Positions 843-31,333 of a stretch of DNA of 31,333 bases are shown piece by piece. Location of the stretch: positions 1 through 31,333 of the IMG/VR virus record IMGVR_UViG_3300032163_000071. One strand, given 5' to 3'. Source of the stretch: a virus. The position numbers were made by a program, and so were the translations under genes. Positions within the stretch are counted from its first letter, which is position 1; each line of letters opens with the position of its first letter. The notes beneath the pieces were generated by a model that made no database searches, was not told the origin of the DNA, and was given only the letters and a program-made list of their open reading frames with translations.

Positions 843-1079
843 ATGCGAGAGGATGAAACGCGAAGGAGTTGGCAAGTGGTTGATGGGCCGGTAATCCCTG
901 TGGAGGTGCGGTGCGGGGACTGTAATCTATGCCTCTACCATAGAGGGGAAACAGGCGCGTGCAGTGTTCCAGTCCCAGATAGCGTGGGAAGCGATAACGG
1001 TATGTGTGACGCCAATTTAACCGAGTGGAGAGTATGCGGGTTTTATCAAGAAAAGAAACCAGAGGAGGATTTGCCGTGA
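843..1079 (+). CDS. Small Cys-rich protein, probable zinc binding, unknown function
   Basis: A 78-aa product if started at the ATG at 843, which has a GGGG stretch about 6 nt upstream; a GTG at 831 would add four residues. It contains CGDCNLC near the N-terminus, then three more cysteines, ending in CDANLTEWRVCGFY. The spacing suggests a structural zinc site, but I recognise no family. A second Cys-rich gene in the late block (19263-19487) has a similar C-D-x(4-5)-E-W-x-x-C ending. The stop codon overlaps the GTG start of the HU-like gene, so the two are probably translationally coupled. Confidence 0.6.
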   Translation: MREDETRRSWQVVDGPVIPVEVRCGDCNLCLYHRGETGACSVPVPDSVGSDNGMCDANLTEWRVCGFYQEKKPEEDLP

Positions 1080-1375
1080 CTAGAAGTGGGATAGCTATAA
1101 AAATTAACGAGGCGACCGGTCGGCCTGTGCGCAGGTGCAGAGAGTATCTAGACTGCGTATTGCGCAACATCCGGCAGGAGCTGGCCGCTGGCGGCGTGGT
1201 TGTGATCCGCGGGTTTGGTGAACTGTCCGTTGTGGACAAAGCGGCACGGGTTGGACGAAATCCCAAGACTGGTAGCCAAGTTATTATCAAAGCGCGGCGG
1301 CGCGTCAGGATGAAAATCAGCCGAACTTGGAAAAATGCAATGGCAAATAATCTTTGGAGAAAACCAAATGACTGA
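1076..1375 (+). CDS. HU/IHF-family DNA-binding protein
   Basis: A 99-aa product, the usual HU/IHF length. I chose the GTG at 1076 because a strong AGAGGAGG Shine-Dalgarno lies about 8 nt upstream and it overlaps the previous stop; an upstream GTG at 1025 lacks this. The conserved beta-arm region is clear: VVVIRGFGELSVVDKAARVG followed by RNPKTG, then the basic strand VIIKARRRVRMKIS and the C-terminal helix. The N-terminal dimerisation helices are more divergent. Family members bend DNA and assist replication initiation, packaging and long-range promoter activation. Its place among replication genes fits replication. It may also matter for the sigma-54-like promoter at 28603, because such promoters often need IHF-type bending; that link is inference. 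Confidence 0.85.
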   Translation: MTRSGIAIKINEATGRPVRRCREYLDCVLRNIRQELAAGGVVVIRGFGELSVVDKAARVGRNPKTGSQVIIKARRRVRMKISRTWKNAMANNLWRKPND

Positions 1376-4251: not shown

Positions 4252-7200
4252 CTATTTGTAGTTTAATCCGAGTGCATGGAGTTCGTAGGATTCGCCCGTA
4301 GTGGTTTGCCTGATTCTGACTTTCGGGCTTGTCCCGGACGGCTGGCCCGTCACGGTAACCTGCGCCAGTTTAGCCGTCGTGCCGTCCGCAAGCGTGTCGT
4401 CTATGTCCCACGTCGCGACTGCCGTATAGGTAGTCCCCGCATCGCGCGAAACTTCATACACCAACGAAGACCCGCTGACACGCTTTTCGATTATTTCCAC
4501 AACCAAGGTTGCCGGAGCAGACGCCGGAACCGGGGGCATAGAGGTTCCGCCGAACACTCTGGAGACCAGCGATATTGCCGAGGACACGGCGTCATAATTT
4601 ATGCGCGTCTGATCGACCTGCGGATTGTTCGTGTTGACCGTGGAATACAAGATCGGCACGATTCCCGCTTTGCCCGTGGGAACGGCGAGCGAGGCATCCA
4701 TTGACTGGATAAGCACCGCGCTGGTCATCCGGTTTGCGGCAAGAGTTAAAGCCTGCCTGATAGCCCCCGCCAGCGTGTTGATCGTTGTATTGGTCAAGGT
4801 CTCGCTACCGTAGGTGGCGTTCGAATTATACTGCCACGTTCCGGCGGTGTTGATTACGACCTTGCGGTAAGTTCCGGTTGTAACTTCATGCGCCCCAAGT
4901 TCCGTAGTCGCGCCCCACGCCGTGATTGCCGTTTTAAATACCAGATACCAAACATTCGCGCTGTTCAGTGTTTCTGTTTTGGCAAACGAGTTAACGTCGC
5001 TCCATGCCGAAACAGCCGCAAGATTCGCGAAAGTGGGGATTACCGGCACATATTCATTGATCACGTTTACCGAAGAACCTTGATAAACTTTTAAGAAGGT
5101 TATCCCGTCCGATACCCATGAGTTGTTGTTGTTTCTGCGGCCTGTTGTGTATGTGGCTGGGCCGTCCGTCACAAAATAATTCGTCGCATCGTTTCCCCCG
5201 TCTCTTGTAAAAACCACAATATAATAATTGTTTGCCGTGAGTGTATATGGTGTGGGAAAAGTAATCGTGGTTTCCACGAATGAGGTTGTCAACGCCGTGC
5301 CAGCTATCGAAGTGGCAGTTGCCAAAGCCGCTCCCGTGGGCATCCCCCCAGCCGCTGTTGGCGTGGTGGTCGCAAATAACGACGCAATAAAATTATCAGT
5401 GGGCGATGCGACTTTCTTGAGTGTTATTTTAATCGAAGATATGGCGGGGGTCGTCGTAACTTGAAACTCTTGTCCCCAAGCTTGTTTGTTATTATTTGTT
5501 CCGCCATAAAGCGAATTATTATTATCAGCCGCGGAAGTCCCGGTAATGTCAACCGTCAACGTCGTGCTATTCGCCGTTCCAAGTTTTGCCACGCCGGAGG
5601 CAATTTGGAAGCTCCGCAAAGTCCACGCGGAATTTGACGCGGTCAACCCATGCCCAGCCACAAGCACAACGTGCGTCGAATCAGTGTATGTTGCGATTAC
5701 CGCGCTGTTGGAGGGGTTGAATGGATTCTCCGGCGAGAACCGCATCCCCACGGCGTTCGCGGGGAATGTCCCAGCCGTGATCGTGATGGTGTTTGTGGCA
5801 ATAGTCGCCGTCGTGCCGGGGTAATCGTAGGTTTCGTGATTCGCTTCCGTCGTAAAGTCCTGATCGGAATTCAAACCGGTGCTTCCGGGGGTATTCTTCC
5901 AAAGCTTATTCGTATTATCGTGGGTATTGCCGGTGGAATTGGTCAAGTCAATACCCGTATTATTCTGCGTGGAGCCATCTTGGAACTTATCAGCAAAACC
6001 GTCAATCGTGTTCGCCACGTAGGCGGAATGATCGGATAATCTACGCACGTTCAGGAGGAAGACGTTGGCAGTATTTATATTGACTTGGGCTGATTCCGAT
6101 TGGCTCCCGCCATACAGCAAAATAAACGCGTCCGCCACGGAATCATAAATCAATTCGTATGAACCATTAGCCTCGATGTCGCCTGACGACAGCGTAACTA
6201 TCCCGGCCCCGGCAAACTTCTTTATGGTCTTCGCGCCCAAACCGGAAATATTGCCGGTTGCTGAAGCGGTGTTGGCAAAGTTTGCTTTTATAAAGTAGTG
6301 ATTCCCATTTACGTACGCGCCCAGCGGGACGCTCGGAGTAATGACATAAGCGTTTGCCGATCCAGTGGTCAAAACGTAGGAAGACCCCGATGCCGCCGCC
6401 GCTTGCGCCGCCGCCGCGCTTGTGTTGGCGGTCGTTTTATCAGCCGCCACGATCGCCTTGTCCGCCGCAACCGTGTTCATATCGGCTATTACAATCGCCT
6501 TGTCCGCCGCTACCGTGGCTTTATCCGCCGCTACCGTGGCAGTATCCGCAACTACCGTCGCCTTGTCAGCGGCTACCGTCGCCTTGTCCGCCGCTACCGT
6601 CGCCTTGTCAGCGGCTACCGTCGCCGTGTTTGCCGCCGCTTCAGCGGCTTTAGTCGTGGCGATGGCGGCCTGAGCCGTTGCGGTTGCGGCATCGGCGGCA
6701 ATTGCCGGGCCGGGGTCTGCAATATATTTAAAAAACGTCAAGCTTCCCGAAGTCGCCAGTTGAAGTGTTTGGCCTGCGATTGTCGTCGGGGTGTCTTTTA
6801 TAAAAGGCGGTGTCGATGCGGAAGTCGAAGTTAATTTTAACGACCTGTTAAGTTCCTCTTTTAATTGTTGCGCCGCCATCATGTTTTTATCCAAGCCGTT
6901 TTCCAGCGACGATGCCGGGAGCGCGTCATTCTCGACCAAGTCTATGGTCTGCGTCAAAGCCACCACGCGGTTTATCAAAACCGTATCGCCAGCGGTAACG
7001 TAAGAACTGTTTATGGATACAGACCCACCGTTTTCGTTGCCAACGCCAGAAACGGAATAATGCGTATCGAGCGTTTTCGATACTCCGTTTATATATAGGA
7101 CGATTTCCGATGAGGCCAATATCTTAAACGAAAACCCGTAAACATAAACACCTGCCGTCGCGGTGTAAGAAATCTTGGTTGTTGTGGATGAAATCGTCAT
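4252..7200 (-). CDS. Tail fibre / receptor-binding protein with T7-type N-terminal domain
   Basis: A 982-aa protein. Residues 1-125 resemble the T7 tail-fibre N-terminus that docks the fibre to the tail: YVYGFSFKI, an IVLYING strand, and VLINRVVALTQTIDLVENDALPASSL. Residues 192-256 are nine near-perfect heptads of the form A-T-V-A-A-D-K, a probable trimeric coiled-coil shaft. Residues about 285-365 (GAYVNGNHYFIKANFAN...GLGAKTIKKF) resemble a common fibre beta-domain. Residues about 540-690, with LTANNYYIVVFTRDG, resemble a choice-of-anchor-R-like beta-sandwich; the C-terminal 250 residues are unassigned and probably carry receptor specificity. An AAAGAGG Shine-Dalgarno precedes the ATG, which overlaps the upstream stop as ATGA. 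Confidence 0.85.
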   Translation of the reverse strand: MTISSTTTKISYTATAGVYVYGFSFKILASSEIVLYINGVSKTLDTHYSVSGVGNENGGSVSINSSYVTAGDTVLINRVVALTQTIDLVENDALPASSLENGLDKNMMAAQQLKEELNRSLKLTSTSASTPPFIKDTPTTIAGQTLQLATSGSLTFFKYIADPGPAIAADAATATAQAAIATTKAAEAAANTATVAADKATVAADKATVAADKATVVADTATVAADKATVAADKAIVIADMNTVAADKAIVAADKTTANTSAAAAQAAAASGSSYVLTTGSANAYVITPSVPLGAYVNGNHYFIKANFANTASATGNISGLGAKTIKKFAGAGIVTLSSGDIEANGSYELIYDSVADAFILLYGGSQSESAQVNINTANVFLLNVRRLSDHSAYVANTIDGFADKFQDGSTQNNTGIDLTNSTGNTHDNTNKLWKNTPGSTGLNSDQDFTTEANHETYDYPGTTATIATNTITITAGTFPANAVGMRFSPENPFNPSNSAVIATYTDSTHVVLVAGHGLTASNSAWTLRSFQIASGVAKLGTANSTTLTVDITGTSAADNNNSLYGGTNNNKQAWGQEFQVTTTPAISSIKITLKKVASPTDNFIASLFATTTPTAAGGMPTGAALATATSIAGTALTTSFVETTITFPTPYTLTANNYYIVVFTRDGGNDATNYFVTDGPATYTTGRRNNNNSWVSDGITFLKVYQGSSVNVINEYVPVIPTFANLAAVSAWSDVNSFAKTETLNSANVWYLVFKTAITAWGATTELGAHEVTTGTYRKVVINTAGTWQYNSNATYGSETLTNTTINTLAGAIRQALTLAANRMTSAVLIQSMDASLAVPTGKAGIVPILYSTVNTNNPQVDQTRINYDAVSSAISLVSRVFGGTSMPPVPASAPATLVVEIIEKRVSGSSLVYEVSRDAGTTYTAVATWDIDDTLADGTTAKLAQVTVTGQPSGTSPKVRIRQTTTGESYELHALGLNYK
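6433..6627 (-). repeat. 21-bp tandem repeats encoding fibre heptads
   Basis: About nine consecutive 21-bp units encode A-T-V-A-A-D-K heptads of the fibre shaft. Several units are nearly identical at DNA level (GTAGCGGCTGACAAGGCGAC in the coding strand), others carry point changes (VVADTAT, VIADMNT). Copy-number change would lengthen or shorten the coiled coil in frame. Confidence 0.85.
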
Positions 7201-10200
7201 TGTTGCGCCTCTTTATTGGGGGGTTTTAAACTTTCTTCATAAAACTGCCTCCTCGCAATCCTCGTTTTGTCCAAATCAGGGAACTCAACAAACATCTGTT
7301 TTCTTGCGGATTGCCTATACATTGTGATAACCTTGCCTATCATTAATATTTTCATTTGGTCGGAAGCATTTTTATATTCATCGGTTTTAATACTTTCATC
7401 CAGTTGTATTTTTGCCGGTTTCCCAGCCAGTTCAGCAAGCCTATTATGTTGAGTCGGCGTTAGTTCAATTCCGTCTATTGTCTTCCCCGGTTTTTTCAGT
7501 GCCATCTCAAGCCGGACTATTTCAGTATTTATATTGTAAGCTTTGTCCTTTTCTCCAACGCTTTTGAATACCGGTAAAATAACGTTTGCCATTATATGCG
7601 GAGGAACCTTCTCGCCCCATAAATCCAATTTTGGCGGCAAGCTGGAAGAAAGGCCGGGGATTTTTGATTTCATAGCCGAAGTTATATCCGTTATATATCT
7701 CAGGTCAGGATCGACAAGTTTGGCAACCTGTCCTGAGACGGCTGGCACTAACGATGCCGCGAATTGTTTTGAAAACGATTCACCCGCGCCGGGCTTCAAT
7801 GCCAAGGCTTCCATCGCGCCCATAAGCCCCATCAATGAACTTTTCTGGGTTATGTTTTTCGCGACAACCAGAGCGTATTTTTCCATCGTCTTTTCAATTT
7901 CTTCGCTGGTTTGTTCATCGAGATCACCGCTTTCCGACTCGTTCACGATTTCCGCTAAATCTCCGGCAACGCTAAGAAATGTTGCAATAGGGTCTAAACG
8001 CGAGAGGCCATAATATACTTTTTCTCCCGCCTTGTTTGCCAAAACCAACGAATAAGGCCGCCAGCCGGTTCGCAATAAAGCTTCTTTCTGGGCCGCGTCT
8101 CGAGGCCCGCCGCCGGTGATTTTCCCATCAAGAGCCAGCTGGTAAAAGTAAAAAGACAGCGCGGAGCCTGTTATTACCTTGGCTAACGCCAAATCTCCAT
8201 CCGCACCGCCTTTTGCTATGCGCGCCCTTGTGCTTGACAAGAACAAGGCGAGCGGGGTTCGCTCAAAAAACTCCTTCAAGATATTTATCGGGACGGTCAA
8301 AAATGGGGCACCAAATTTTAAATATAGATGCTCATTTGTCGCCTTTTTAAAGGTTCCCATTAAACCGGTTAGGCTGTTAGAGAACGCCGCTTTATCGCCG
8401 GCCACTTTTGCGTTCTTTTGCAGTAGCGGCGGCGGCGCGTCGATTATCTGTTGAATTCTCTTAGCTAAATCTTCCCCGATCCGGTTTTCAGACAAGGCTT
8501 TGCGCGTCGCGAGAGCGGTAAGCTCCGCTTTGTAGCCCATATATTTGTATAATTCGTCAACCGACATCAAGCCGCGCCCCGGCAGTCGCAGCATAGTACC
8601 AAATAAATCCACGAGTACCCCCGGCCACGATCCCGGATTAAGTTGCAGGTTTTCGGCAGTCCAAGTGTAGGTATAACTTTCAGGGTTTGAAAACTGGCCG
8701 GAGGGCTTGCCTGTCTTCCACGCCTTCCGTAACAGTAATAAACCATCGGGAATTGCCTTTGCCATGCCATACACATAGGCGGTTGCTTCTGACAAAGAAA
8801 CCCCTTCGTCGGCTCCAAATTGCCCTGCCACCTTACGTCCAGCACCAGCGGCGTATCGTTCTATAACGTTTAACATCACGAGCAACGGGCTTCCTAAAAA
8901 ATTTGTGATGAGTGTAGACGTTGAGGATAATAAAGAAAAGTAATAATATTCAAGTAAATATGCCCAGAAATTTGGTCTTTTGGCGGCCTGATTCATAAAG
9001 AATTCCCGCTCCGCTTGGTCGCTTAATGACGAAAATCTTTTAATGAGTTCTTCTGGCGTTATTTTTGCGCCCGCCATTTCAGCCAAATCGTTTTTTAGAA
9101 GCTCCGGTATTGTATTTAGATTGTTTATCATTTCATTAGACATCCCCGGTGGGAACGATCCCGGCACGTCAATTCTTCGTGTCGCTAACCCAGTGGAAAA
9201 GCCACTGCTAAATTCTTTGTTATGAGTTCCCAGAGCTTTGGTTATTGCAAATTGCCGCATAAACGCCATACTATCTTCCGGGCTTTTTGTGATTTCGAAA
9301 ATTCTAGCTAATCGGACTTGTTCTAGCACGGATGAGGCTTGTAATATCCGTGTCGCAAGTTGCTGTTTTATCAAATTATCGAATATCGCTTTAGGATTGC
9401 GCGCCAACGCTTTTTGCAATGTCTCTGGAAAATCCTTGCCAATCATGGTTACTACCGAAGATACGATATCATTAAACTCTCGCGCTGGATTTCCCGCCGC
9501 AATTTCACCGCTAAGTATTTTGTGGATATCGACTTTCGCTGATTCCAAATTACCCAAGGTCTTGATTTTTCCCCAATCGATGGATAGGCCCCCAATGTCC
9601 ACTGGCTGTCCTTCAATATTGATAAACGTGGGGGTTTTCGGGACTGCGGCTGGCGTGGGTTTTTTCGGGCCTACGGCTCCGCGTTCATTTTGTAATACCT
9701 TGAAAGCCCCCGCTTTATTCAATAATTTAAACGACTTCAGAATCCCCTCGATCCCCGCCACCATCCCAGCACCTTCCAAGGCTTTTTTAAGCTTGGCAGT
9801 GGCAATAGAGTCCTCTGGATTCGAAGCCAGATAAGTGTCGATGGCGGATTGTAATTCAGGGTGTCCGCTGGATATCGCGCTGACCATATTAAAAAAGCCG
9901 GGTTCTCTTGGGTTAAAAGCAATACCCTCAACCAACGCCTGTGCCGCCATTGCCTTTGTTATGGAGTTGAGTCCGCCGACTGCCTTTGAAGCTGGAATCA
10001 GGGCTATCGCGCCTTGGCTGATGCGACGCACCACCTCCCCGACTGGACCTCCTGCGTGTTGAACTTCAGGGATGTTAACCCTGACTGGGCCGCCCATCAA
10101 CTTATCGGTTAAAAATTTGTCGATGTCTTTTAGCGTCTCTGAATTGTCTCGAATCCAATTCATCCCTTGGTTAATGGCTGTCCCTGACTCAACGACAGCG

Positions 10201-27114: not shown

Positions 27115-27163
27115 GTTATCACGTTTCCCCCACAGCGTTTTAATTCAATTCATGCTATACGCT

Positions 27164-27192
27164 AAATAACACAAACCCCCAAAACCTGTCAA
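27164..27192 (-). promoter_or_regulatory. Candidate sigma-70 promoter for the leftward late block
   Basis: On the minus strand a perfect -35 TTGACA (27192-27187) is followed after 17 nt by TTATTT (27169-27164), or after 15 nt by the better-matching TGTTAT. It lies 50-78 bases upstream of the holin ATG. The -10 is weak, so an activator or phage factor may be needed. The near-palindrome at 27243-27258 lies about 50 bp further upstream. Confidence 0.4.
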
Positions 27193-27242
27193 GCTTTTTT
27201 TTCAAACCGCATTGCGGGGATATTATAATCCGCAAGCCAAGT

Positions 27243-27258
27243 GTAGCTTATAAGTTAC
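27243..27258. promoter_or_regulatory. 16-bp near-perfect dyad, possible operator
   Basis: GTAGCTTATAAGTTAC is palindromic except for one mismatched pair. It lies in the control region about 50 bp upstream of the candidate leftward -35. The single copy makes any function uncertain. Confidence 0.3.
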
Positions 27259-27505
27259 GGGCTTAAATCCCACGTCCCACGCGGGGAAATTCCATTTTCA
27301 CCCGACCGGCCTTACTCCGAGGCTTAGGTTCTTTTGGAAAAGTTGATTAAAAACATAGCAGTTTATAGAAAAAACACGCCATCCGCAAAGCCACGCCCAC
27401 CGCAACCCATTCCACTATTTTTACACTATTTGCTTGACAAACAGAGTTACACCCCCCACTATTGATATGAATTGATAACCCGTGCCCCCCAGAAGAAGAA
27501 TAAGG

Positions 27506-27697
27506 TTAAACCCATCCAAGATCGCCCAACCCCAAACACCTGCTCATTGCCACACGGCTAAGGCGCATCAATGCAATAAACGCCGCCACAAACCATCCCG
27601 GATATCCGAAAATCCCAGCGCAAAGAAAAAAAATTCCGAAGGTTTCTAAAAGTTCACTCTTCCAATAAACACTAAATTTTGCAAACCCGGCGCGCAT
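27506..27697 (-). CDS. Doubtful small membrane-protein ORF
   Basis: A 63-aa reading frame with a hydrophobic central part (FGIFFLCAGIFGYPGWFVAA then FIAL). No Shine-Dalgarno precedes the ATG at 27697 (the upstream sequence is C-rich), and no family is recognised. A GTG farther in has GGAAGAG-like bases near it. It is the only plausible coding stretch in the control region. Confidence 0.22.
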   Translation of the reverse strand: MRAGFAKFSVYWKSELLETFGIFFLCAGIFGYPGWFVAAFIALMRLSRVAMSRCLGLGDLGWV

Positions 27698-27712
27698 TGC
27701 GTTGGGGGGTGG

Positions 27713-27727
27713 ATCGATAGTATCGAT
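27713..27727. repeat. Short perfect inverted repeat
   Basis: ATCGATA and TATCGAT flank a single G. It could be a protein-binding dyad. It is close to the three-copy direct repeat that begins at 27782. No further support. Confidence 0.3.
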
Positions 27728-27781
27728 GCGTCTAAAAGGGGGGTGGGGGCATCCTGAATCATCGGACGACAGAGTAAGGCG

Positions 27782-27895
27782 AACAGCATCTAAGGGCGTA
27801 GAGTAACGGAGTAAGGCGAACAACATCTAAGGGCATGGAGCAACCAAGCCAAAGGTAAACAGCATCTAACGGCATAGAGTAACGGAGTAAGGAAG
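27782..27895. repeat. Three-copy 37-39 bp direct repeat in the control region
   Basis: Units at 27782-27818, 27819-27857 and 27858-27895 share AACARCATCTAASGGCRTRG followed by AGYAACSRAGYMAAGG. The first and third units are most alike. A partial copy (AGAGTAAGGCG) precedes the first. No conserved open frame runs through them, so a binding array or recombination-prone repeat is more likely than coding. Confidence 0.8.
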
Positions 27896-28003
27896 AACAC
27901 CACATATGTATCCAGTGCACAGCGACCTGATTCACGGCACGGCAAACCCGAACCGGAAAACTCAGAGGAATACAAAACGCTTAATCACGGGATATATATA
28001 GAG

Positions 28004-28038
28004 CGTCAAAAGATTGACGGTGCGTCAAAAGATTGACG
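28004..28038. promoter_or_regulatory. Paired 16-bp palindromes CGTCAA-AAGA-TTGACG (sites 1 and 2)
   Basis: Two identical copies at 28004-28019 and 28023-28038, 19 bp centre to centre (close to two helical turns). Both have perfect 6-bp arms. This spacing suits side-by-side binding of a dimeric regulator. The core GTCAA-N4-TTGAC resembles the FleQ-box consensus as I recall it (about GTCAATAAATTGAC). Confidence 0.75.
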
Positions 28039-28209
28039 CTTTACCATTCCCTCCCCTATTCCCCATTATCCCTCCACCGAGATATACAGCGGCCGGGGTT
28101 AAAAAATGCAATTGCTGTTAACCGCTGGTGGTTTAGGATCGTAACCGTGCGCTGGACGGGCGCGGAATCCCCATAATCGCCGTTAATTCAACGGGTTAGC
28201 GAGTGAGGC

Positions 28210-28225
28210 CGTCAAATTCTTGACG
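28210..28225. promoter_or_regulatory. Palindrome site 3, CGTCAA-ATTC-TTGACG
   Basis: Third copy of the 16-bp dyad with perfect arms. It is followed 10 bp later by TGATTCCGTGCAAAT (28236-28250), which recurs after site 4 with one change. The pair of sites 3 and 4 therefore looks like a duplicated composite element. Confidence 0.75.
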
Positions 28226-28271
28226 GTTGACCGTATGATTCCGTGCAAATTGCATACAACTGGATAAAAAC

Positions 28272-28287
28272 CGTCAATTTCTTGACG
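28272..28287. promoter_or_regulatory. Palindrome site 4, CGTCAA-TTTC-TTGACG
   Basis: Fourth copy of the dyad with perfect arms, followed by TGATTCCGTGCTAAT at 28306-28320. It lies about 350 bp upstream of the predicted sigma-54 start site. Confidence 0.75.
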
Positions 28288-28365
28288 TTATTTAGTTGCA
28301 CTGTCTGATTCCGTGCTAATCCGCGCCTCCCATCCCACGTTGATGTATCCTTTTCCATACGGCTT

Positions 28366-28381
28366 CGTCAATTTCTTGACG
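28366..28381. promoter_or_regulatory. Palindrome site 5, CGTCAA-TTTC-TTGACG
   Basis: Fifth copy, identical in sequence to site 4 and closest to the promoter, centred about 256 bp upstream of the predicted transcription start. That distance is within the range used by sigma-54 enhancer-binding proteins. Confidence 0.75.
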
Positions 28382-28602
28382 GTGAATCAACGCCGCCGTA
28401 AATTGTAACTATTGCCGTTTTCTGTAAAAACACGCTAACTATCGGATTCTAAACGATTATTCCGTCCTCCCACGGTCCGGGTTCCAGCAGATTGTCAACC
28501 CATATCCAGCCGTTCCCCGCGCCCGCCTAACTCGATTTTTTTATATCACCGTAACCCCAATGGATACAATGGTTTACGGGTTATTTATTTATTACCCCCT
28601 GC

Positions 28603-28619
28603 TTGGCACATGCTTTGCA
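28603..28619 (+). promoter_or_regulatory. Sigma-54 (RpoN) promoter for the rightward accessory operon
   Basis: TTGGCACATGCTTTGCA matches the sigma-54 consensus TGGCAC-x5-TTGCA, with the invariant GG (28605-28606) and GC (28617-28618) exactly 10 nt apart. The predicted start is near 28630, about 51 nt before the first ATG at 28681. A sigma-70 alternative (TATAGT at 28631) lacks a usable -35. Such promoters need an enhancer-binding activator and often DNA bending; palindromes suitable for the former lie upstream. Confidence 0.65.
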
Positions 28620-28680
28620 ACCTATATGCTTATAGTTGTTCACCTTAAAGCGGAAAAAACAATTTAATCGAGGACGAAAA

Positions 28681-29061
28681 ATGGCTTACGAACTTTCAAC
28701 ATTTAAAGGCAACGAGCAACACTCGATCCAATGCACGGGGGATGTGGTGGCGGGGGATGAGGTCGCTTTTGAGCGAGCGACTTTTACGGGATCATTCCGG
28801 AACGCAAAATTTGCCGGATTCGAGCGGATCGCTGGGAAAATTATAACAGATTCTTATGGGCAAAAATCTCAACAGCATACGTTCACAATTCAAACCGCGG
28901 GGGGGGAAATAATCAAAATCAAGGGCCGCAATCTCTATAAAAACGGTGTGTGGCGGAAACCGTGGGACGACGAGCGCGCACGCGTCGCAGTTGCTGACGA
29001 AAAACACAGCCGTGGCGCGCAAGCGCGGATGCAAAAAGAGTTGAATTACGCGAACGTTTAA
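28681..29061 (+). CDS. Hypothetical accessory protein, first gene after the sigma-54-like promoter
   Basis: A 126-aa protein from the ATG at 28681, preceded by CGAGGACG; an upstream in-frame start at 28636 lies next to the predicted transcription start and is unlikely. The N-terminal half looks beta-rich (GDVVAGDEVAFERATFTGSF, GFERIAGKIITDSYGQKSQQ and HTFTIQTAGGEIIKIKGRNL). The C-terminal tail is basic and helical (ARVAVADEKHSRGAQARMQK). No family recognised. It starts a run of small, tightly spaced rightward genes typical of a phage early region. Confidence 0.65.
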   Translation: MAYELSTFKGNEQHSIQCTGDVVAGDEVAFERATFTGSFRNAKFAGFERIAGKIITDSYGQKSQQHTFTIQTAGGEIIKIKGRNLYKNGVWRKPWDDERARVAVADEKHSRGAQARMQKELNYANV

Positions 29062-29096: not shown

Positions 29097-29501
29097 ATGA
29101 AAACGAAAACCCCGCTAAAAATAGTAAACCTGCGAAAAATTTTAAAATTACATGCTCTTTGGCTTGCATTCGACCCCAGCGGTAAAAAGGCCGATCTTTC
29201 CGACGCTAAACTTTGCGGGGTTGATTTATCCTTTGCTGATCTCAGATACGCCAACCTATCCCGCGCTAACCTCAGATACGCAAACCTCAGAGACGCCAAC
29301 CTGTTTTACGCCAACCTGTCACACGCTAATTTCAAATACGCCAACCTCAGGGACGCCAACCTGTCACACGCTAACCTCAGATACGCAAACCTGTCTAACG
29401 CTAATCTCGCTAACGTGGACATCGCGGCGGCGGACCTCGGAAATGCCTATCTCGTTGACGCCGATTTCAGGGACGCCAACCTCAAGCGAGATAAACAGTA
29501 A
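29097..29501 (+). CDS. Pentapeptide-repeat protein
   Basis: A 134-aa protein. A short N-terminal helix (LRKILKLHALWLAFDPSGKK) is followed by about 20 tandem pentapeptides of the A-(N/D)-L-x-x type (residues about 31-130), which fold as a right-handed beta-helix. Some members of this class mimic DNA and act on gyrase (Qnr, MfpA), but many phage members have no known role. Repeats are visible at DNA level (TACGCCAACCTG units). The opening helix is repeated in the partial gene at 31282, so the family is duplicated in this cluster. Confidence 0.85.
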   Translation: MKTKTPLKIVNLRKILKLHALWLAFDPSGKKADLSDAKLCGVDLSFADLRYANLSRANLRYANLRDANLFYANLSHANFKYANLRDANLSHANLRYANLSNANLANVDIAAADLGNAYLVDADFRDANLKRDKQ

Positions 29502-29564: not shown

Positions 29565-30125
29565 ATGGAAACAGACTTGGCGGTAACAAAACCAGAAATC
29601 CCTAAATCCCGTTTTATGCGGGCCGTTCAGGGTTTTGCGAGCGAGGAAATCACCGGCCCGCGCGGTGGACGGTATATAATTTACACCGAGGGGGGGGAGG
29701 ACGGCGATATTGGAATAATGGAATTCAACGGGAATAGGGCATTGCCAGCGTGGATATTAAAAAAATACATACCCGCTGATTATCGATCGGTTTTAACAGG
29801 TGGAACAACCTATGCGTGGCACGGGCAATTATTTTCCAAAATGGAGGCGGAAAAAACGGGCCCAGAATTTCTGAAAACGCAGGAACTCGTGCGTGTGCGG
29901 GAAAACGAGCGTATAAAGGAGTGGTGTATCCACGACATGGAACGCTGGCCTATTATAAACAGACAATGGTTCCTCAGCCCGGTCGCTGGGAATTTCTCTC
30001 CGGGGTGTTCCCCGTTCCCTCCACGCGCGTGGGGAATACAGTGCCCCCATTGCCAGAGAGGTTTATGCGGATTTGTCGTTGACCGCGTAAGCAATTCACC
30101 AGAAGACACCGTCGTATGGTTCTAA
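29565..30125 (+). CDS. KYIPADYR-family accessory protein with C-terminal Cys motif
   Basis: A 186-aa protein. Residues about 15-95 (SRFMRAVQGFASEEITGPRG, YIIYTEGGEDGDIGIMEFNG, KKYIPADYRSVLTGGTTYAW then HGQLFSKME) align closely with the gene at 30898-31236, so the two are paralogues. The extra C-terminal half has CPHCQRGLCGFVVD, a possible zinc knuckle, and a WFLSPVAGNFSPG segment. I recognise no family. The first part may bind a host protein or nucleic acid, but nothing in the sequence says which. Confidence 0.75.
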   Translation: METDLAVTKPEIPKSRFMRAVQGFASEEITGPRGGRYIIYTEGGEDGDIGIMEFNGNRALPAWILKKYIPADYRSVLTGGTTYAWHGQLFSKMEAEKTGPEFLKTQELVRVRENERIKEWCIHDMERWPIINRQWFLSPVAGNFSPGCSPFPPRAWGIQCPHCQRGLCGFVVDRVSNSPEDTVVWF

Positions 30126-30485: not shown

Positions 30486-30827
30486 ATGGACACTATGACC
30501 GAAAATTCAACGGAATCAACAGAATCCATTCTCGAAAAATACAGGGACGCTTTGTATGAGAAAAAAAAAGCGGAATTAAACAGCCTCGCAAAAATGACAG
30601 AGATTGAAATCCAAATCACGCGCGATCGACTATCCCTATATCCTGCTATTCAGGAAGCAAAAACCATAACCGCCGCGCGGAAACATTTTGCCCGATTTTT
30701 AAAAGTTTGCGACTTGCTAGAAAAGGCGAAAAAACTCGACCGCGCCGGTTTGCCGTGCGGCAAGGCTTACGCTGACTGGGCTAATGCGAGCTGGATAAAT
30801 GCGAGAAAGGCCCCCCCAAACTGCTGA
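30486..30827 (+). CDS. Hypothetical coiled-coil accessory protein
   Basis: A 113-aa protein with a Glu/Thr/Ser-rich start and a long charged helix (ILEKYRDALYEKKKAELNSL, KMTEIEIQITRDRLSLYPAI, KHFARFLKVCDLLEKAKKLD), probably a coiled coil. Two short C-terminal motifs (GKAYADWANASWINARK) have no recognised match. The SD AGGAGG comes from the shared leader. Function unknown. Confidence 0.65.
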   Translation: MDTMTENSTESTESILEKYRDALYEKKKAELNSLAKMTEIEIQITRDRLSLYPAIQEAKTITAARKHFARFLKVCDLLEKAKKLDRAGLPCGKAYADWANASWINARKAPPNC

Positions 30828-30847: not shown

Positions 30848-30897
30848 CGGCCCGCGTTTGCGGGCCGTATTTACCCTCAAACTCGGAGATAAAAATC
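30848..30897 (+). promoter_or_regulatory. GC-hairpin plus SD leader, copy C
   Basis: CGGCCCGC-GTTT-GCGGGCCG (30848-30867) is followed by a block identical to copy A (GTATTTACCCTCAAACTCGG, AGATAAAAATC-ATG). Copies A and C precede the two KYIPADYR paralogues, so leader and gene probably duplicated together. Confidence 0.75.
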
Positions 30898-31236
30898 ATG
30901 GAACCGATTTTTGGAAATTCAAATTCACGTTTTACGCGGGCAATCCGCAATTTTAAAGCCGAAATAGCGAGAGGCCCGAACGGTGATGACCACGACGTTT
31001 ATGTTGTTTATACCGAGGATAGAGCGGACGGCAATATTGGGATAAAGACATATAACGGGAAAAACACATTTCCTCAGTGGTTATTAGATAAATACATACC
31101 CGCTGATTATCGGGTTGTTGTAACAAGTGGCTCTACCAATGCGTGGCACGGGAAAGTATATGCAAAAATGGATCATGAACTCCTGCAACTGTTGGAAATT
31201 CGCTTGGCGGTAACGATTGACCCATGGGCTGATTGA
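30898..31236 (+). CDS. KYIPADYR-family accessory protein, short paralogue
   Basis: A 112-aa protein: NSRFTRAIRNFKAEIARGPN, YVVYTEDRADGNIGIKTYNG, LDKYIPADYRVVVTSGSTNA and WHGKVYAKMD. It aligns along its length with the first 95 residues of the protein at 29565-30125 but lacks the C-terminal Cys half and has a short distinct tail instead. The ATG follows leader copy C. Unknown function; duplicated families of this sort are common in phage early regions that fight host defences. Confidence 0.75.
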   Translation: MEPIFGNSNSRFTRAIRNFKAEIARGPNGDDHDVYVVYTEDRADGNIGIKTYNGKNTFPQWLLDKYIPADYRVVVTSGSTNAWHGKVYAKMDHELLQLLEIRLAVTIDPWAD

Positions 31237-31281: not shown

Positions 31282-31333
31282 ATGAAAATAAATTTGCCGA
31301 AAATTTTAAAATTACATGCGCTCTGGCTCGAAA
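31282..31333 (+). CDS. Pentapeptide-repeat protein paralogue, 3'-partial
   Basis: The gene runs off the right edge. The visible 17 residues (MKINLPKILKLHALWLE) match the start of the pentapeptide protein at 29097 (KILKLHALWL), and the DNA for this stretch is nearly identical (AAAATTTTAAAATTACATGC). The leader is also the same type. It is most likely a second pentapeptide-repeat gene, but the repeats lie outside the window. Confidence 0.6.
   Translation, partial: MKINLPKILKLHALWLE

Follow-up and report, generated by a model that had tools for sequence, protein, structure and literature searches.

A candidate sigma-54 promoter with upstream FleQ/FlrA-type boxes in the control region of a podophage fragment

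We propose that the rightward operon of IMG/VR virus record IMGVR_UViG_3300032163_000071 is transcribed from a sigma-54 promoter that would be activated by a host flagellar enhancer-binding protein of FleQ/FlrA type, a reading of the sequence to which we assign a probability of about two in three. The window, by which we mean the whole stretch of DNA analysed (31,333 nucleotides), is a podophage fragment in which T7-like tail tube proteins, internal virion proteins, portal, capsid and terminase are encoded on the - strand at ~3.3-27.1 kb, and its proteins show a kinship of roughly 25-48% to those of HTVC010P-like and Mareflavirus-like phages. The elements on which the proposal is built are the following.

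27115 to 28680, no strand: control region, with the leftward structural and lysis genes and the rightward operon on either side (from ORF layout and protein families)
28004 to 28019, no strand: FleQ/FlrA-type box 1, CGTCAAAAGATTGACG, an exact palindrome that fits the published FleQ consensus (PMC6120874)
28023 to 28038, no strand: FleQ/FlrA-type box 2, CGTCAAAAGATTGACG, an exact palindrome
28210 to 28225, no strand: FleQ/FlrA-type box 3, CGTCAAATTCTTGACG, an exact palindrome
28272 to 28287, no strand: FleQ/FlrA-type box 4, CGTCAATTTCTTGACG, an exact palindrome
28366 to 28381, no strand: FleQ/FlrA-type box 5, CGTCAATTTCTTGACG, an exact palindrome and the closest of the five to the core, 222 nt upstream of it
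28603 to 28630, + strand: overlapping weak sigma-70-like match, TTGGCA-16-TATGCT (9/12 match)
28604 to 28619, + strand: sigma-54 promoter core TGGCAC-ATGCT-TTGCA (-24/-12), TGGCACATGCTTTGCA, the sole exact match in the record
28630, + strand: predicted transcription start, placed by sigma-54 geometry 12 nt past the GC of the -12 box

The first-pass annotation had described a near-perfect sigma-54 promoter with the GG-N10-GC spacing kept, and this description holds. The core, which reads cTTGGCAC-ATGCT-TTGCAacc with its surroundings, matches TGGCAC-N5-TTGCA at 11/11 positions, and its GG (28605-28606) and GC (28617-28618) are exactly N10 apart; compared with YTGGCACG-N4-TTGCW, it deviates only at the G after TGGCAC, which is A here. 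It had also been called the only such match in the control region, and it proves to be the single 0-mismatch site on both strands of the entire 31,333-base record, for which a first-order model expects 0.05 exact cores; the expectation for the one correct strand of the control region is ~0.0016 under a first-order genome model. The site is directed at the genes, as had been claimed, since it lies on the + strand at the right place ahead of the rightward operon, with a predicted leader of 51 nt from 28630 to the ATG at 28681. At up to three mismatches the motif occurs at chance frequency (80 found against 83 expected), and the case therefore rests on the exactness, placement and context of the core.

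The rightward operon extends to the contig end and comprises these genes.

28681 to 29061, + strand: first operon gene, a DUF7699 protein of 126 aa with a GAGG ribosome-binding site (PF24766, E 1.1e-16)
29097 to 29501, + strand: pentapeptide-repeat protein (PF00805, E 5.4e-39)
29565 to 30125, + strand: 186-aa protein without a family match (ORF), by eye a paralogue of 30892-31236
30486 to 30827, + strand: 113-aa protein (ORF)
30892 to 31236, + strand: 114-aa protein (ORF), by eye a paralogue of 29565-30125

A second pentapeptide-repeat copy starts near 31313 and runs into the contig end (31313-31333), so that the operon holds two apparent gene duplications as judged by eye from the translations (29565-30125 with 30892-31236, and 29097-29501 with 31313-31333). 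Its earlier label as an accessory operon is a guess. Rightward replication genes sit at the other contig end, where HU/IHF-like and methyltransferase genes also run rightward, and the two ends are not joined.

Upstream of the core, the control region contains five exact CGTCAA-N4-TTGACG palindromes (28004-28381), of which the rest of the record has none; at up to two mismatches there are seven sites against 1.6 expected, a count reached in none of 100 shuffles. The first-pass annotation, while correct about the promoter, had described the promoter only and overlooked these palindromes. Flagellar genes are the targets of FleQ and FlrA, both enhancer-binding proteins that work with sigma-54. FleQ has the consensus GTCaNTAAAtTGAC in P. 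aeruginosa and GTCAaAAAAtTGAC in P. putida (PMC6120874), FleQ boxes are given as GTCAAT-N2-ATTGAC in a structural study (PMC10723142), and the corresponding motifs are GTCA-N6-TGGC for FlrA of V. cholerae and yGTCA-N6-TGACr for an FlrA-like homologue of Desulfovibrio (PMC4641369). Judged by the consensus of PMC6120874, the window has five exact copies of the 14-bp inverted repeat GTCAA-N4-TTGAC, with the reservation that ChIP of FleQ in P. fluorescens yielded no robust consensus and that the consensus alone predicts poorly (PMC6120874). The boxes begin 237-599 bp upstream of the core (-237 to -599) and are, by sequence, candidate upstream activator sites. At 222 nt, the nearest is more distant than in the two related contigs described below and in bacterial promoters, the usual range being 50-125. 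A separation of 222 nt is within reach of enhancer-binding proteins. No IHF site was found between the boxes and the core, and one match with a single mismatch lies elsewhere in the control region. The phage itself encodes an HU/IHF family protein (window 1025-1375, PF00216), which could aid DNA bending at a promoter with a distant enhancer. To the left of the boxes, window 27776-27892 contains three imperfect direct repeats of 41 nt at a spacing of 37-39 nt.

From these elements, a mechanism can be outlined. RpoN (sigma-54) polymerase at 28604-28619 would start the rightward operon near 28630, once a host protein of FleQ/FlrA type had bound one or more of the five boxes at 28004-28381 and DNA looping had brought it to the promoter. 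Neither an enhancer-binding protein gene nor an RpoN gene was found in the window record, so the host likely supplies both. A phage-encoded activator was considered and set aside, because the records searched yielded no candidate for one, nor any RpoN. Strict activator dependence is an established property of sigma-54 promoters, and by that biology it is predicted, and only predicted, for the phage promoter. The operon would then be on when the host flagellar programme is on and, by analogy with Pseudomonas, when c-di-GMP is low. Binding and activation, like host identity, timing and c-di-GMP dependence, are what we infer.

The arrangement of box, gap and core is found in bacteria before flagellar genes. 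As a positive control, we searched 395 genomes from the phylum of a Desulfobacterales MAG for GTCAA-N4-TTGAC followed, after a gap of 41-101 nt, by TGGCAC-N5-TTGC. The pattern occurred 16 times in 15 genomes and its backwards version not at all. The first gene downstream reads as fliL in eight cases, as the gene of a FliA-like sigma factor in two cases and as motA in one; Pfam agreed for every protein tested, namely six FliL, one sigma factor and MotA. Within the one phylum covered, a box followed by a core is thus a mark of sigma-54 promoters of flagellar genes. The phage control region resembles these FleQ/FlrA-activated promoters of Desulfobacterota-phylum genomes (fliL, fliA, motA and others) in having GTCAA-N4-TTGAC upstream of TGGCAC-N5-TTGC. 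It differs from them in being phage-borne and placed before phage genes, and in having five boxes where those have one, with 222 nt to the nearest.

The layout recurs in two diverged relatives of the window phage, both viral contigs retrieved through the regulatory pattern and not through protein homology: L083 by box plus core, and G007 by box pairs alone. Identity to the window phage is 44% for the portal, 31% for the protease and 43% for Rz1 in L083, and 26% for the portal, 28-50% for tail tube B and 27% for the capsid (MCP) in G007. L083 has three boxes at -78, -189 and -262, then TGGCACGGCGGTTGCA, with a gene ~67 nt past the expected start; in G007 the boxes number ten, are of the form GTCA-N6-TGRC and span -136 to -502 ahead of TGGCACGGGGTTTGCT. 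In both, boxes are followed by an exact sigma-54 core that points, between divergent operons, toward the early-side operon opposite the structural genes. The order of boxes and core in the window phage is the same, and the promoter is thus conserved in place. The earlier sigma-54 reading is therefore supported by the five FleQ/FlrA-type boxes, by the bacterial flagellar promoters and by these two relatives. Pelagibacter phage HTVC010P and Alteromonas phage ZP6, podophages of the HTVC010P/Mareflavirus-like kind, share portal, capsid and tail-tube homology with the window phage. Unlike it, the eight isolate phages sampled from this wider family have neither a GTCAA-N4-TTGAC box nor an exact core, and the layout is thus not general in the family. 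Protein searches of viral contigs found no relatives of DUF7699 or of the terminase, and portal relatives (~45%) only on short contigs that lack the control region. A DUF7699 search of Desulfobacterota and other genomes gave no match, and its controls were equally silent. Host assignment by prophage homology was dropped, because portal matches in Desulfobacterota reached just 24-30%.

Beyond these relatives, an exact core lies within 600 bp of a box in four of the ten phage families with box pairs, the window included; permuted motifs give a mean of 0.02 families, and none of 400 reaches four. The window is itself one of the four families, and two others are the T5-like phages G005 and G014, where the core occurs in inverted pairs of 36 bp or in tandem arrays of 26/28 bp, arrangements that are not explained by single promoters. 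On contig L042 (G014), tandem sigma-54-like cores with 28-bp and 26-bp periods were seen at 5330-5442 and 8120-8224, and the second array adjoins a GTCAA-N4-TTGAC box array. Inverted TGGCAY-N5-TTGC pairs, with ~34 bp between outer ends, also occur in L089 (900-5000), L035 (4297-4330) and L078 (2945-2979); in L089, a 335-kb jumbo phage contig, most genes have such a pair in front of them, with a conserved CTAAAAAGATATCTTC-like stretch after it. In L077, a contig of a Desulfobacterales MAG that resembles phage DNA, TGGCATGTGGTTTGCA is preceded by two boxes, at -106 and -127, and in the unrelated phage L082 each of two sigma-54 sites is paired with a box at -88. A scan for box and core pairs found ~4 independent families in the forward orientation, seven matches (two families) in the orientation control and one with a scrambled core. 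Of the two orientation-control families, one match apparently lies within coding sequence and the other comes from a jumbo phage in which cores are very numerous. Given these control matches, the pair scan is weak by itself and we do not take it as proof.

It is unlikely, in our estimation, that the site is instead a promoter for sigma-70 (TTGGCA-16-TATGCT), its -35 hexamer resembling a -24 box by chance and the boxes serving as repressing or modulating operators. The 9/12 match at 28603-28630 would suit such a promoter, TTGGCA-16-TATAAA is also present in G007 and L077, and at biofilm genes with boxes in tandem FleQ works together with sigma-70 (PMC10723142, PMC6120874). The Pseudomonas biofilm promoters under FleQ control (pel, lapA, bcs) likewise have several FleQ boxes per control region (PMC10723142, PMC6120874). 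They are described as sigma-70 promoters, whereas the phage region has an exact sigma-54 core. Against the sigma-70 reading, sites of that kind are not above chance in the control region (5 against 6.4 expected). The promoter of L083 and both promoters of L082 match sigma-70 at only 7-8/12 positions, yet keep TGGCAC/CGGCAC-N5-TTGC, and every member retains the TTGC of the -12 box, for which a sigma-70 promoter has no use.

That the palindromes are operators of a phage repressor or of another host regulator, the core being a chance match or belonging to another activator, appears quite improbable. Bacteroidales and Actinobacteria carry the palindrome too, as tandem pairs without sigma-54 cores nearby, and it is therefore not diagnostic by itself; the 222-nt distance, being unusual, would also fit such operators. 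Against this, no recognisable phage regulator was found in the window record, and the exact core and boxes recur together in the two relatives and in Desulfobacterota flagellar promoters. A general link between palindrome and sigma-54 across bacteria was rejected (1/31 loci, a value equalled by 27/400 permuted motifs). In the Bacteroidales MAG RUG12892 (L050, L054, L055, L058, L064, L066, L071, L073), CGTCAA-N4-TTGACG forms numerous tandem pairs at a spacing of 23 or 46 nt, with no sigma-54 core nearby; these are probably a different repeat or operator. There is only a slim chance that the boxes act chiefly as a decoy, titrating FleQ/FlrA and perhaps sigma-54 polymerase so that host flagella are shut down, with the promoter secondary: the boxes do exceed the need of one promoter (five in the window, ten GTCA-N6-TGRC in G007) and G014 has tandem cores, but in the window, in L083 and in G007 the core has the right distance and direction relative to the first gene, and a decoy needs neither.

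The flagellar sigma-54 reading would add a new regulator to a known theme. Phages are wired to host master regulators elsewhere, as with Spo0A boxes in phi29-like phages and CtrA sites in Caulobacter phages. Those phages likewise have sites for a host developmental regulator in a control region; there the regulator is Spo0A or CtrA, and here it would be a flagellar sigma-54 activator together with a sigma-54 promoter. In the open literature, within incomplete coverage, we found no account of a phage operon controlled by FleQ and sigma-54. More tentatively, and at slightly less than even odds, several unrelated tailed phages may have brought an early-side operon under the control of a full copy of the host flagellar sigma-54 circuit, FleQ/FlrA boxes and core included, so that its expression would track the decision between motile and sessile life and c-di-GMP.

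In summary, the likely activator of the phage promoter can now be named from the sequence as a host flagellar enhancer-binding protein. The combination of FleQ box, gap and sigma-54 core is a sequence signature that can be searched for in any phage genome. If the reading is true, the host swimming programme would gate phage gene expression, which could serve the phage either to sense motile cells or to act upon the motile state.
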